A stretch of 64,000 bases of DNA, taken from Endomicrobium proavitum. GTDB lineage: Bacteria; Elusimicrobiota; Endomicrobiia; Endomicrobiales; Endomicrobiaceae. Shown here in pieces: positions 54,508 through 58,624 of the stretch. The notes beneath the pieces were generated by a model that was not told where the DNA came from, ran no database searches, and was given only the letters and a program-made list of their open reading frames with translations. Each line of letters opens with the position of its first letter. The stretch's first letter is position 1. The DNA lies in assembly GCF_001027545.1 (NCBI RefSeq), contig NZ_CP009498.1, forward strand, positions 992,001 to 1,056,000. Reading direction: 5' to 3'. The translations under genes were made by a program, and so were the position numbers.

Positions 54508-55236
54508 TTATTTAAGCAATACTTTCATCTCTTTAACAGCGGTTTCAATTCCTACAAAAACTGCGCGAGCTATTATTGCAAAACCTATATTAAATTCGTT
54601 CATCTTTGCCACGGAACATATCGGCGCTATATTATCATAGTCAAGCCCGTGTCCGGCGTTTAAAACAAGCCCTGCGCCGACAGCTTTATTTGAAGCCTCC
54701 GAAATTCTTTTTAATTCGCTTTTAAACTCTTTTGAATTTTTACCGAACCGTTTAAAATATTGCGCGTATTTTCCTGTGTGAAGTTCAATGCAATCCGCGC
54801 CTATTTCATGCGATGCCAAAACTTGTTTAATATCCGCGTCTATAAACATGCTCACAAAAATTCCGGAAGCTTTAAGCTTTGCAACAATTTGGGCAAGTTT
54901 CTTTTTTTGTCCCGCAACGTCAAGACCGCCTTCGGTAGTAAGCTCTTGCCTTTTTTCCGGAACAAGACAAACATAATCCGGCTTAACGTCTAAAGCTACG
55001 GCGACAATTTCTTCATTTGCCGCCATTTCAAGATTTAATTTTGTTCTCAAAGATTCTCTTAAACCGTAAACGTCTTTATCCTGAATGTGTCTTCTATCCT
55101 CGCGCAAATGCACGGTTATGCTGTCCGCGCCTGCTTTTTCGCAAGAAGCCGCCGCAGCTATAACGCTTGGAAACTCTTCTTTGCGAGCCTGTCTTAAAGT
55201 GGCGACGTGGTCTATATTTACTCCGAGTTTTATCAT
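54508..55236 (-). CDS. pdxJ: Pyridoxine 5'-phosphate synthase
   Basis: The 242-residue product closes the pyridoxine ring in the deoxyxylulose-phosphate-dependent vitamin B6 pathway. Clear motifs: LGVNIDHVATLRQAR at the start, DSITVHLREDRRHIQDKDV, CLVPEKRQELTTEGGLDV, IGADCIELHTGKYA and VGAGLVLNAGHGLDYDN. Length is standard. It overlaps glmM by four bases (ATGA) and so is in the same operon. Confidence 0.95.
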   Translation of the reverse strand: MIKLGVNIDHVATLRQARKEEFPSVIAAAASCEKAGADSITVHLREDRRHIQDKDVYGLRESLRTKLNLEMAANEEIVAVALDVKPDYVCLVPEKRQELTTEGGLDVAGQKKKLAQIVAKLKASGIFVSMFIDADIKQVLASHEIGADCIELHTGKYAQYFKRFGKNSKEFKSELKRISEASNKAVGAGLVLNAGHGLDYDNIAPICSVAKMNEFNIGFAIIARAVFVGIETAVKEMKVLLK

Positions 55237-56579
55237 TTTACAATTCCCAAAATTTCGGCATCCGCCGATTCTATTATACCTTGCGCTATTTTTTTTATTT
55301 CGCTTTTATTTTTACCCTCAACCATAACGCGCAGCAAATTTTCCGTTCCGGAGTACCGGACAAGAATTCTTCCGTCGGAACCTAATTTTTTTTCATATTT
55401 TTTTATCAAAACGCCTGTTTTGGAAAGCTTCTCAACCGGAATTTTAGCGGCAACTTTTTTATTTATAAGTATCTGCGGAAATTTTTGCACGCCGCTTACA
55501 AACTGCGAAAGAGTTTTATTTTCTTTAGCAAGCGCCGCAAGCAGCTGCACTGCGGACAGCAACCCGTCGCCGGTGCCAAGCAAATCGCTGAAAATAAAAT
55601 GTCCGGACTGTTCCCCGCCAAGCGACGACTTGAATTTTTTCATATCCTCAAGAACGTATCTGTCGCCGACTTTTGAAACAACTGTTTTAATTTTAGCTTG
55701 GCTCATGGCTTTTAAAAGGCCGATATTTGCCATAACGGTTGTTACCAAAACATTATTTTTTAATTTGTTTTCGCTTTTTAAAAATTTAGCCATAGACGAA
55801 AGAAAATAATCGCCGTCCCGAACAACCGCATTTTCATCTATGCAAATTAATCTGTCGGCATCGCCGTCAAAAGCAAATCCGCAAAACGCTTTATATTTTT
55901 TTACGGCGCTTGCCGCAATTTCCGGATAAAGCGCGCCGCAACATTTATTTATATTTTTGCCGTCCGGACTAACGTTTAACGCTACAACTTTTGCTCCGAG
56001 TTTTTTTAAAACGCCGACGGCGCATTTATACGCCGCGCCGTTTGCGCAATCGGCTATTATTGTTTTGCCTTTTAGAGAGCCGTGCCCAAAACTTTCAACT
56101 ATGAAATTTTCGTAAGCTTTTATCAGCGTATTATCTTCATGCAGATTGATATTTTTAGTTTTTATTGCGATTTTTTCGGCAAAGTACTTATTTATTTTTT
56201 TCTCAATTTTTGCTTCGGTAAAATCCGTAAGTTTAGAACCTTTAGAATTGAAAATTTTAATTCCGTTATCAATGTAAGGATTATGCGACGCCGAAATTAC
56301 AATAGCCGCAGAATATTTTCCGCTTCTTAAAAGAAACGACGCCGCGGGCGTAGGCATAACCCCGCCGAAAACCGGAACTGCTCCGCCGGACAACAAACCA
56401 AGAGCCAAGTATTTTTGTATTCTTTTGCCTGACTGCCTTGTATCGCGTATTATTAAAATTTTATTTTTTGAATTTTTAAGCGTTTGGGCAATAGCTTTGC
56501 CTATAACCGAAAGCGAGTAGTTGTCAAATGGAAATTCCGAAGAGTTGCCCCGTATGCCGTCCGTGCCGAATAGTTTCAT
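55233..56579 (-). CDS. glmM: Phosphoglucosamine mutase
   Basis: The 448-residue enzyme interconverts glucosamine-6- and -1-phosphate. It starts KLFGTDGIRG, has the phosphoserine loop VISASHNPYIDNGIK, the metal-binding AFDGDADRL, the sugar-binding LGGEQSGHFI and the phosphate-binding VRYSGTENLLRVMVEG. The ATG at 56579 is preferred because the family begins with (M)xxxFGTDGIRG; an upstream in-frame start at 56600 would overlap the cdaR relic. It follows cdaA and the relic, the gene order cdaA-cdaR-glmM known from Firmicutes. Confidence 0.95.
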   Translation of the reverse strand: MKLFGTDGIRGNSSEFPFDNYSLSVIGKAIAQTLKNSKNKILIIRDTRQSGKRIQKYLALGLLSGGAVPVFGGVMPTPAASFLLRSGKYSAAIVISASHNPYIDNGIKIFNSKGSKLTDFTEAKIEKKINKYFAEKIAIKTKNINLHEDNTLIKAYENFIVESFGHGSLKGKTIIADCANGAAYKCAVGVLKKLGAKVVALNVSPDGKNINKCCGALYPEIAASAVKKYKAFCGFAFDGDADRLICIDENAVVRDGDYFLSSMAKFLKSENKLKNNVLVTTVMANIGLLKAMSQAKIKTVVSKVGDRYVLEDMKKFKSSLGGEQSGHFIFSDLLGTGDGLLSAVQLLAALAKENKTLSQFVSGVQKFPQILINKKVAAKIPVEKLSKTGVLIKKYEKKLGSDGRILVRYSGTENLLRVMVEGKNKSEIKKIAQGIIESADAEILGIVK

Positions 56580-56583
56580 TTTT

Positions 56584-56682
56584 TTACCTGTAAACCACAA
56601 ATATCCAAAGAACTACGGCAAGACATAAAGCCAAAAGTTTAAGATGCCAGTTATGCATTATTCTTAATAAAAATTTTTTCAT
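56584..56682 (-). CDS. 32-residue CdaR/YbbR relic: lone membrane helix
   Basis: A small gene begins in an ATGA overlap with cdaA and ends 4 bp before glmM. It encodes MKKFLLRIMHNWHLKLLALC and LAVVLWIFVVYR. The N-W-x-L-K-L-L-x-L-x-L-A-x-x-L-W pattern is exactly the N-terminal membrane anchor of YbbR/CdaR proteins, which sit at this place in the operon and regulate CdaA. All YbbR domains are missing. The frame is intact and overlaps its neighbour tightly, so it may be expressed as a membrane microprotein rather than being dead sequence. Confidence 0.75.
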   Translation of the reverse strand: MKKFLLRIMHNWHLKLLALCLAVVLWIFVVYR

Positions 56683-57443
56683 TTCGTAAAATCCTCGCCG
56701 TTGGTCTCAATAATTTCTTTCAGCTTTGCGCTTGAAACGTTTGAATGAAGCTTATTTTTATAAGCCACCGAAACATTGCCCGTTTCTTCAGACACCACAA
56801 CTATTACAGCGTCCGTTACTTCGCTAAGTCCAAGCGCCGCTCTGTGGCGTGTTCCGTATATTTTTACATTTGTGTTGTGGCTAAGAGGCAGCACACAGCC
56901 GGCGGCGGTAATTTTATCGTTATAAATTATTATGGCGCCATCGTGAAGCGGAGCTGATTTATTTTTAAAAATAGAAAGTATAAGCTCTTTTGAAATATTG
57001 GCGTTTAAAATAACTCCCGTTTCAGCATAACTTTTTAAACCTATTTCATTTTCAACAACTATCAGCCCGCCTGTTTTTGTAGAACTTAAAATTTCAACGG
57101 CTTCTAAAATGTCGTTAACATATTCGTCTTTAATTCTTGCGCCTGAACCCCAAATATTTGCGCCTATCTGCGCAAAAACATTTCTTATTTCGCTTTGGAA
57201 AACGACGGCAAAAATTATAACTGCGGCAAGCCAAAATTTATTTAAAATCCAAGCTAACGCTCTTAAATGCACCACGTCTCTGGCGATGACGGTTAAAATA
57301 AGCACAAACAATATTCCAAGAAGAATTTGCGTGGCTCTTGTGCCTTTAATAATTAAAATAATGCGGTAAAAAATAAAAGCAAGTATAAGAATATCCAAAG
57401 CGTTTACTATATACAAATCGTATATGTGTCTTAACATCTGCAT
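56679..57443 (-). CDS. cdaA: Diadenylate cyclase CdaA
   Basis: The 254-residue product makes cyclic di-AMP from two ATP. Three N-terminal membrane spans (~12-85) are followed by the DAC domain with LHDGAIIIYNDKITAAGCVL (DGA at 168-170) and YGTRHRAALGLSE (RHR at 199-201), both catalytic motifs intact. The TGATG overlap with folP and the ATGA overlap with the following relic show an operon. Linkage to glmM is the classic arrangement, coupling c-di-AMP to wall precursor synthesis. A downstream ATG (57437) is an alternative start. Confidence 0.95.
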   Translation of the reverse strand: MQMLRHIYDLYIVNALDILILAFIFYRIILIIKGTRATQILLGILFVLILTVIARDVVHLRALAWILNKFWLAAVIIFAVVFQSEIRNVFAQIGANIWGSGARIKDEYVNDILEAVEILSSTKTGGLIVVENEIGLKSYAETGVILNANISKELILSIFKNKSAPLHDGAIIIYNDKITAAGCVLPLSHNTNVKIYGTRHRAALGLSEVTDAVIVVVSEETGNVSVAYKNKLHSNVSSAKLKEIIETNGEDFTK

Positions 57444-58624
57444 CAGACTCTCCTTATGCTTGTTATAAGTTTTAAAACATTAACGGTTTCTTTAACATCG
57501 TGAACGCGCACAATATCCGCGCCGCAATATGCCGCCAAAAAGTTTGCCGCCACAAAAGCGGTTTTATCTTCAGACGACGATGCCGCCCGGATAAACTTTT
57601 TTCTTGACACCGCTCCTACAACCGCGCCGAGAGAAGAAAACGCGCTCATATTTTTGACAAGCTCTAAATTGTGTTCTACGGTCTTGCCAAAACCCGGCCC
57701 CGGATCTACGGCTATAAATTCATTTTTTATTCCGAAAGAATTAGCGTATTTTTTTCGCTGCGAAAGAAACTCAAAAACTTCGCTTACGCAGTCTTTATAA
57801 GACGGATCTTTCTGCATGCTTGCCGGAACGCCTTGCATGTGCATTAAAATTACGCCGGCTTTAGAGTTTGCAATAAGCTTTGCAAGTTTGTCTTTGCCTT
57901 TTTGAAGAGCAAAAATATCATTGATAATATCCGCTCCTTCGTTAAGCGCCGCTTTTGCGGTTTCGTATTTATACGTATCTATTGAAACGGGAATTTTAAC
58001 CGCTTTTTTAATTTTTTTTAGAGCCGGCAGCAATCTTTTAATTTCTGTTTTTGCGTCAATAAGTTTTGCTCCCGGACGGGAAGACTCCGCGCCTATGTCT
58101 AATATTTTTGCTCCGGCTTTTTCAAACTCTATAGCCCGCTTTACTGCCTCGTCGGCATTTGTAAGACCGTCGCCGGAAAAAGATTGCGGATCCATGTTTA
58201 TTATGCCCATTACCGCGGGGCTTAAAATATCTATAAACGTTTTTTTATATTTCCAGATTTTTTTATCCGCAAGCAAACTGTCTTTTATTTCCGACAAATG
58301 CGCCGCAACTTCTTTAAGACCAAACGGCTGGAAGCAAAGTTTCTTAATTAATATTTCAATTTGTTTAACCGTTGCAAATAAAACTGTGTCGGAAAAACCT
58401 TTTTTAAATCTGCTGACATTTTCGTTTACCGCAGCGTCCGCGCCCGCGGAAAGAGCTTCTTGTTTTAAAATGCTTGCCGCTCGGTTATCTATAGCGTCTA
58501 TAACAACCGCAATAAGAACGGCTTTTTTTGCAAGTATTTTATGCGCAAATTTATCGCTGCCTGTTTTTTTAACAAGCTTTAACGCGTCTTCAAAGTTGTT
58601 AACTGCGGCTTTTCTTATAATCAT
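57443..58624 (-). CDS. folP: Dihydropteroate synthase, long form
   Basis: The 393-residue enzyme joins pterin pyrophosphate and p-aminobenzoate in folate synthesis. It is longer than usual (about 280) owing to a ~130-residue N-terminal domain with AASILKQEALSAGADAAVNE, as in some other long dihydropteroate synthases. Motifs of the barrel are present: GAKILDIGAESSRPGA, VSIDTYKYETAKAALNEGAD, HMQGVPASMQKD, DPGPGFGKTVEHN, AVSRKKFI and RVHDVKE. The usual NVTPDSFSDGG loop reads NMDPQSFSGDG, an unusual change at two positions. It overlaps folE by four bases. Confidence 0.92.
   Translation of the reverse strand: MIIRKAAVNNFEDALKLVKKTGSDKFAHKILAKKAVLIAVVIDAIDNRAASILKQEALSAGADAAVNENVSRFKKGFSDTVLFATVKQIEILIKKLCFQPFGLKEVAAHLSEIKDSLLADKKIWKYKKTFIDILSPAVMGIINMDPQSFSGDGLTNADEAVKRAIEFEKAGAKILDIGAESSRPGAKLIDAKTEIKRLLPALKKIKKAVKIPVSIDTYKYETAKAALNEGADIINDIFALQKGKDKLAKLIANSKAGVILMHMQGVPASMQKDPSYKDCVSEVFEFLSQRKKYANSFGIKNEFIAVDPGPGFGKTVEHNLELVKNMSAFSSLGAVVGAVSRKKFIRAASSSEDKTAFVAANFLAAYCGADIVRVHDVKETVNVLKLITSIRRV

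Follow-up and report, generated by a model that had tools for sequence, protein, structure and literature searches.

The stretch of DNA considered here, referred to as the window, comprises 64,000 nucleotides (NZ_CP009498.1, positions 992,001 to 1,056,000) of the genome of Endomicrobium proavitum, a member of the Elusimicrobiota with a single contig of 1,588,979 bp. On the minus strand of the window, ftsH, folE, folP, cdaA, a frame of 32 codons, glmM, pdxJ and glmS follow one another, the names other than cdaA and glmM being assigned from sequence reading. The short frame, the subject of this report, was found by reading the open reading frames (ORFs) of the window at 56584-56682; it starts with ATG and encodes MKKFLLRIMHNWHLKLLALCLAVVLWIFVVYR. 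Its upstream neighbour, cdaA (56679..57443, minus strand), encodes a membrane diadenylate cyclase of 254 aa recognized by PF19293 (CdaA_N), PF02457 (DAC) and TIGR00159, the enzyme that produces cyclic di-AMP (c-di-AMP), and the ATGA at 56682-56679 contains both the stop of cdaA and the start of the microprotein, an arrangement also seen in relatives. The frame ends with TAA at 56586-56584, and 4 bp further on the ATG of glmM lies at 56579; this ORF (55233..56579, minus strand) encodes a phosphoglucosamine mutase of 448 aa, the nearest solved chains of which are GlmM. The intact start, the overlap and the short spacing before glmM are as the original prediction had given them. From conservation and homology, the frame is a real gene for a stand-alone anchor of CdaR, and probably for a one-helix membrane subunit of CdaA.

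By sequence reading, residues 16-30, LLALCLAVVLWIFVV, form a predicted transmembrane (TM) segment (56593..56637, minus strand). Basic residues lie N-terminal of this single helix, and by the positive-inside rule the microprotein would have an N-in/C-out topology.

A conserved anchor without YbbR domains

Random sequence of the same composition leaves a 31-codon frame open in 7.5% of cases, so the frame alone proves little and the evidence is its conservation. Among 57 Elusimicrobiota loci the microprotein frame is open in all, compared with 0/57 and 16/57 for the other two forward frames, and when the start positions of these 57 loci were scored, 29 had kept the ATGA overlap. Moreover, the microprotein is under purifying selection: in ten disjoint pairs, the proportions of synonymous (pS) and nonsynonymous (pN) differences are 0.390 and 0.082 (ratio 0.21, p 5e-22). 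Over 103 overlapping pairs pN/pS is 0.35, versus 0.23 for cdaA over all close pairs. A frameshift artefact was rejected, because the genome was closed by PacBio sequencing (PMC4505116) and many relatives with independent assemblies show the short frame as well.

Homology places the protein with CdaR (YbbR), whose members carry one to four extracytoplasmic YbbR domains behind an N-terminal TM anchor. Like CdaR of Bacillota, the microprotein is encoded directly after cdaA and, as is usual in that phylum, before glmM, a position shared by its relatives, and it has the CdaR N-terminal helix motif W/N-x-[LIV]-[KR]-..-[AS]-...-A-...-W. A profile (A1) built from 39 Elusimicrobiota microproteins matches the N-terminal ~30 residues of long CdaR proteins that follow cdaA in other phyla, best in a Desulfarculaceae protein, MLKLITHNWSLKLLALAIALAMWLYV (35 bits, E 7e-11), with the same positions conserved. 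Unlike CdaR, the window protein does not have even one YbbR domain. PF07949 (YbbR) was detected neither in the frame nor in the whole E. proavitum genome, while control genomes were positive, and a full CdaR elsewhere in this genome was accordingly rejected. Within the phylum, YbbR matches occur in 4/295 genomes; one of them (L034; loci, genomes, genera and families carry our labels L, G, g and f) is spurious, being an extracellular Ig-like protein. The original prediction, a CdaR membrane anchor lacking its YbbR domains yet retained, is therefore borne out, and of the two outcomes that would have spoken against it, a frameshift and the lack of the frame in relatives, neither was encountered.

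Four positions, K15, A/S18, A22 and W26 in the numbering of the window protein, are common to the microproteins of three phyla and to the long CdaRs detected by the profile. Across the four groups, K/R is present in 97-100%, A/S/C at 18 and A/S/T at 22 in 100%, and W in 82-100%; as long CdaRs were counted only when the profile detected them, that group is skewed towards similar sequences. Given their spacing, the four residues (K15 to W26, 56605..56640, minus strand) would lie on one helix face, on which A/S18-xxx-A22 may form a small-xxx-small packing motif.

No curated model of Pfam, NCBIfam or PHROGs matches the window protein, and the 39 profile members gave two marginal single matches in Pfam and none in NCBIfam or PHROGs. 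In the open-access literature on diadenylate cyclase microproteins and on c-di-AMP in Elusimicrobi-, no prior description of such an anchor microprotein was found.

Distribution of the anchor and its fusions to CdaA

The original prediction had regarded the short frame as a reduction of CdaR in this operon. The anchor-only form is instead the rule throughout the Elusimicrobiota, and it extends to Omnitrophota and Margulisbacteria. Directly 3' of cdaA, 76 of the 87 Elusimicrobiota cdaA loci encode a separate anchor homologue of 24-50 residues; in two others, the anchor forms one protein with CdaA. The A1 profile has exactly one match in the E. proavitum genome and, at E <= 0.05, matches in 171/295 genomes of the phylum. 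With the limit set at E <= 0.001, about 148 remain by the author's reading of the table, and among the matches listed all of these carry cdaA. In the family of E. proavitum, the anchor is present in 64/64 genomes with cdaA and in 0/13 without it; as the genomes are related rather than independent, the Fisher value for this contrast serves as a description only. In family f16, the anchor follows cdaA and the next gene is other than glmM. When GTDB genomes were searched with a CdaA alignment, 76 of the 80 named loci lay outside the Elusimicrobiota. In these, cdaA is usually followed by a gene for a long CdaR (134-515 residues), and no anchor-only gene adjoins cdaA in any of the 76.

The Omnitrophota contain both forms. 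The profile matches 145/193 of their genomes, with an open frame of at most 100 aa in 76 genomes and a longer one in 69; short anchors and YbbR are mutually exclusive, since YbbR is found in 2/76 of the former versus 62/69 of the latter. The anchor lies 3' of cdaA in all 20 short loci fetched and in L216, and in nearly all of these folP is upstream and pdxJ comes next. The folP-cdaA-anchor order is also that of the window, where the folP ORF (57443..58624, minus strand) overlaps the start of cdaA. In Margulisbacteria (74 genomes), cdaA is present in 62 genomes, the anchor in 50 and YbbR in none.

Fusion of the anchor to CdaA has occurred repeatedly. In L037 (G017), CdaA runs in frame into the anchor to give a protein of 287 aa, while the sister locus L028 retains the ATGA overlap; two genomes of genus g4 (L095/L096) and two of the f16 genus g62 (L091/L097) have fusions with a longer linker. 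In the CdaA tree, these represent three separate fusion events among unfused microprotein-bearing relatives, and all of them carry the anchor only, without YbbR. A separate CdaA clade, consisting of L031, L032, L033 and family f21, also has the anchor in cis. L031-L033 have one YbbR domain in addition, and in L100-L102 (f21) the protein ends right after the anchor, where the next frame starts in L101 and L102. The tree, in which f21 groups with L033 with a support of 0.84, suggests that in this clade YbbR was lost while the anchor was retained.

By sequence reading, a DHH/DHHA1-type phosphoesterase gene directly follows the fused cyclases in this clade (L101:1944-2990, L102:1687-2748, L031:1783-2736 and L033:419-1459), its start overlapping the cyclase in L101. 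The two may form a synthase-phosphodiesterase pair.

Role of the anchor and rival explanations

In Bacillota, CdaR contacts CdaA via TM parts and some streptococci fuse the two proteins, while the mode by which CdaR regulates CdaA is unclear in the literature (PMC10243994; PMC8573169). Given this published contact between membrane helices, the simplest mechanism would be a one-helix subunit packing on the helices of CdaA. The single N-in/C-out helix would insert beside the CdaA TM helices and give this membrane-bound cyclase a small subunit, with the face of K15, A/S18, A22 and W26 probably making the contact. Such packing could determine how stable CdaA is, how it is oriented or which oligomeric state it adopts, and hence its cyclase activity. 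Full-length CdaR of other phyla has the same helix with extracytoplasmic YbbR domains attached; here, that outer input is missing and the membrane module alone is kept. The microprotein, homologous to the CdaR anchor and devoid of YbbR, probably works through the same contact. No solved structure contains the anchor helix with CdaA; 9g69 shows the CdaA cyclase domain with GlmM.

Several observations weigh against this assignment. No anchor was detected in families f8 and f19 or in genome G203, although cdaA is present there, so the anchor is not strictly required. Two genomes, G008 and G131, have kept the anchor with glmM rather than with cdaA; in G008 (L042, L098), one of the nine Elusimicrobiota loci among the 87 that have no anchor directly after or fused to cdaA, the microprotein is directly 5' of glmM on another contig than cdaA, which is now beside a pyrB-like gene. 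In Margulisbacteria (L208, L219-L233 and L273-L292), the anchor is not linked to cdaA, and 19 of 20 fetched loci have it between topA and panC; 6 of the 12 genomes without a cdaA match still carry it, and co-occurrence is not significant in this phylum. A CdaA-independent role there is therefore possible, as are assembly gaps or incompleteness. Many of the genomes are metagenome assemblies, including the sources of some fusions, so single fusions could be sequence errors, to which those found in two genomes are less exposed. Covariation between anchor and CdaA, computed as mutual information with average product correction from 175 pairs (effective number of sequences, Neff, 102), gave a weak signal: the membrane part of CdaA accounts for 50% of the 100 highest-ranking pairs versus 35% expected (p 0.02, a value uncorrected for relatedness).

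In family f8 (L071, L072, L073, L085 and L086), where no anchor was detected, cdaA is followed by a gyrB-like gene in the loci that were read; these provide a naturally anchor-free CdaA as a comparison.

The location of the frame allows other explanations. Its end 4 bp before glmM, and a last sense codon, AGG (56587..56589, minus strand), that by sequence reading is a candidate Shine-Dalgarno element of glmM, would suit a leader whose translation merely couples ribosomes to glmM and whose peptide has no role. However, selection acts at the amino-acid level, the anchor persists with pdxJ (Omnitrophota), panC (Margulisbacteria) or other genes (f16) as its next gene, and several lineages have it fused to CdaA, which leaves this explanation very improbable. 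A decaying CdaR remnant, left behind after c-di-AMP control was lost, is just as hard to credit. The genome indeed lacks YbbR, as does nearly all of the phylum, and in the reduced endosymbionts G112, G104 and G108 (L104, L105 and L106), where cdaA is fragmented or broken by stops, the anchor is degraded too; yet the anchor is seen to decay only in company with cdaA, and phylum-wide retention, purifying selection and occurrence in three phyla do not fit a remnant. The original prediction had left open whether the frame might be a minimal regulator of CdaA or a mere marker of lost c-di-AMP control; repeated fusion to CdaA, co-loss with cdaA and the published membrane-helix contact favour a CdaA subunit or regulator instead.

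A partner other than CdaA would account for the anchor that stayed 5' of glmM in G008 and G131 while cdaA moved, as well as for its place between topA and panC in Margulisbacteria. The microprotein could then be a membrane tether or partner of GlmM or of another protein, which we consider unlikely: the anchor stays with cdaA in f16 and Omnitrophota, where glmM does not come next, is known in fusions to CdaA only, disappears together with cdaA in the family of E. proavitum, and has as its homologue the CdaA partner of Bacillota (PMC10243994). A narrower form of the CdaA-subunit assignment, in which the helix serves only the insertion or stability of CdaA and exerts no control of activity, is a minor possibility. 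It agrees with the loss of any outer domain that could receive a signal and with the tolerance of fusion to CdaA; f8 and f19, which keep CdaA without the anchor, count against it, and nothing does so directly.

Relation to known systems

The CdaA-anchor proteins L037, L095/L096 and L091/L097 resemble the streptococcal CdaA-CdaR fusions (PMC10243994) in having cyclase and anchor in one chain, but they are anchor-only, and the YbbR-bearing L031-L033 belong to a separate CdaA clade. KdpF, MgtS and phospholamban are small membrane subunits of one helix each, by which an enzyme or a transporter is regulated. The microprotein is like them in its ~30 residues, its one predicted helix and its association, through gene position or putative action, with a membrane enzyme; it differs in that its putative partner is a cyclase and its helix is homologous to the CdaR anchor, and no sequence relation to them is claimed.

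At least three phyla have retained the helix without YbbR, sometimes fused to CdaA and sometimes in another operon, so the helix appears to be the working part. The membrane helix by itself would then be what counts, with no need for outer sensor-like domains. A broader proposition, on which our judgement is evenly balanced, is that the TM helix rather than the YbbR domains constitutes the conserved functional core of CdaR and the usual single-helix subunit of CdaA-type cyclases. Elusimicrobiota, many Omnitrophota and most Margulisbacteria would then regulate or assemble the cyclase via a microprotein of ~30 residues, and YbbR would be an accessory outer input, lost or kept independently. These organisms offer a natural truncation experiment, a 32-residue system for a direct test of the role of the helix, and a widespread microprotein family for which the three protein-family libraries searched have no model.

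Elsewhere in the E. proavitum genome (L293:20-1746, ~257.1-258.9 kb), a KtrB/TrkH-like protein, a membrane subunit of the Ktr/Trk type, is encoded beside a KtrA-like protein with TrkA_C. The latter is a plausible candidate receptor or target of c-di-AMP.
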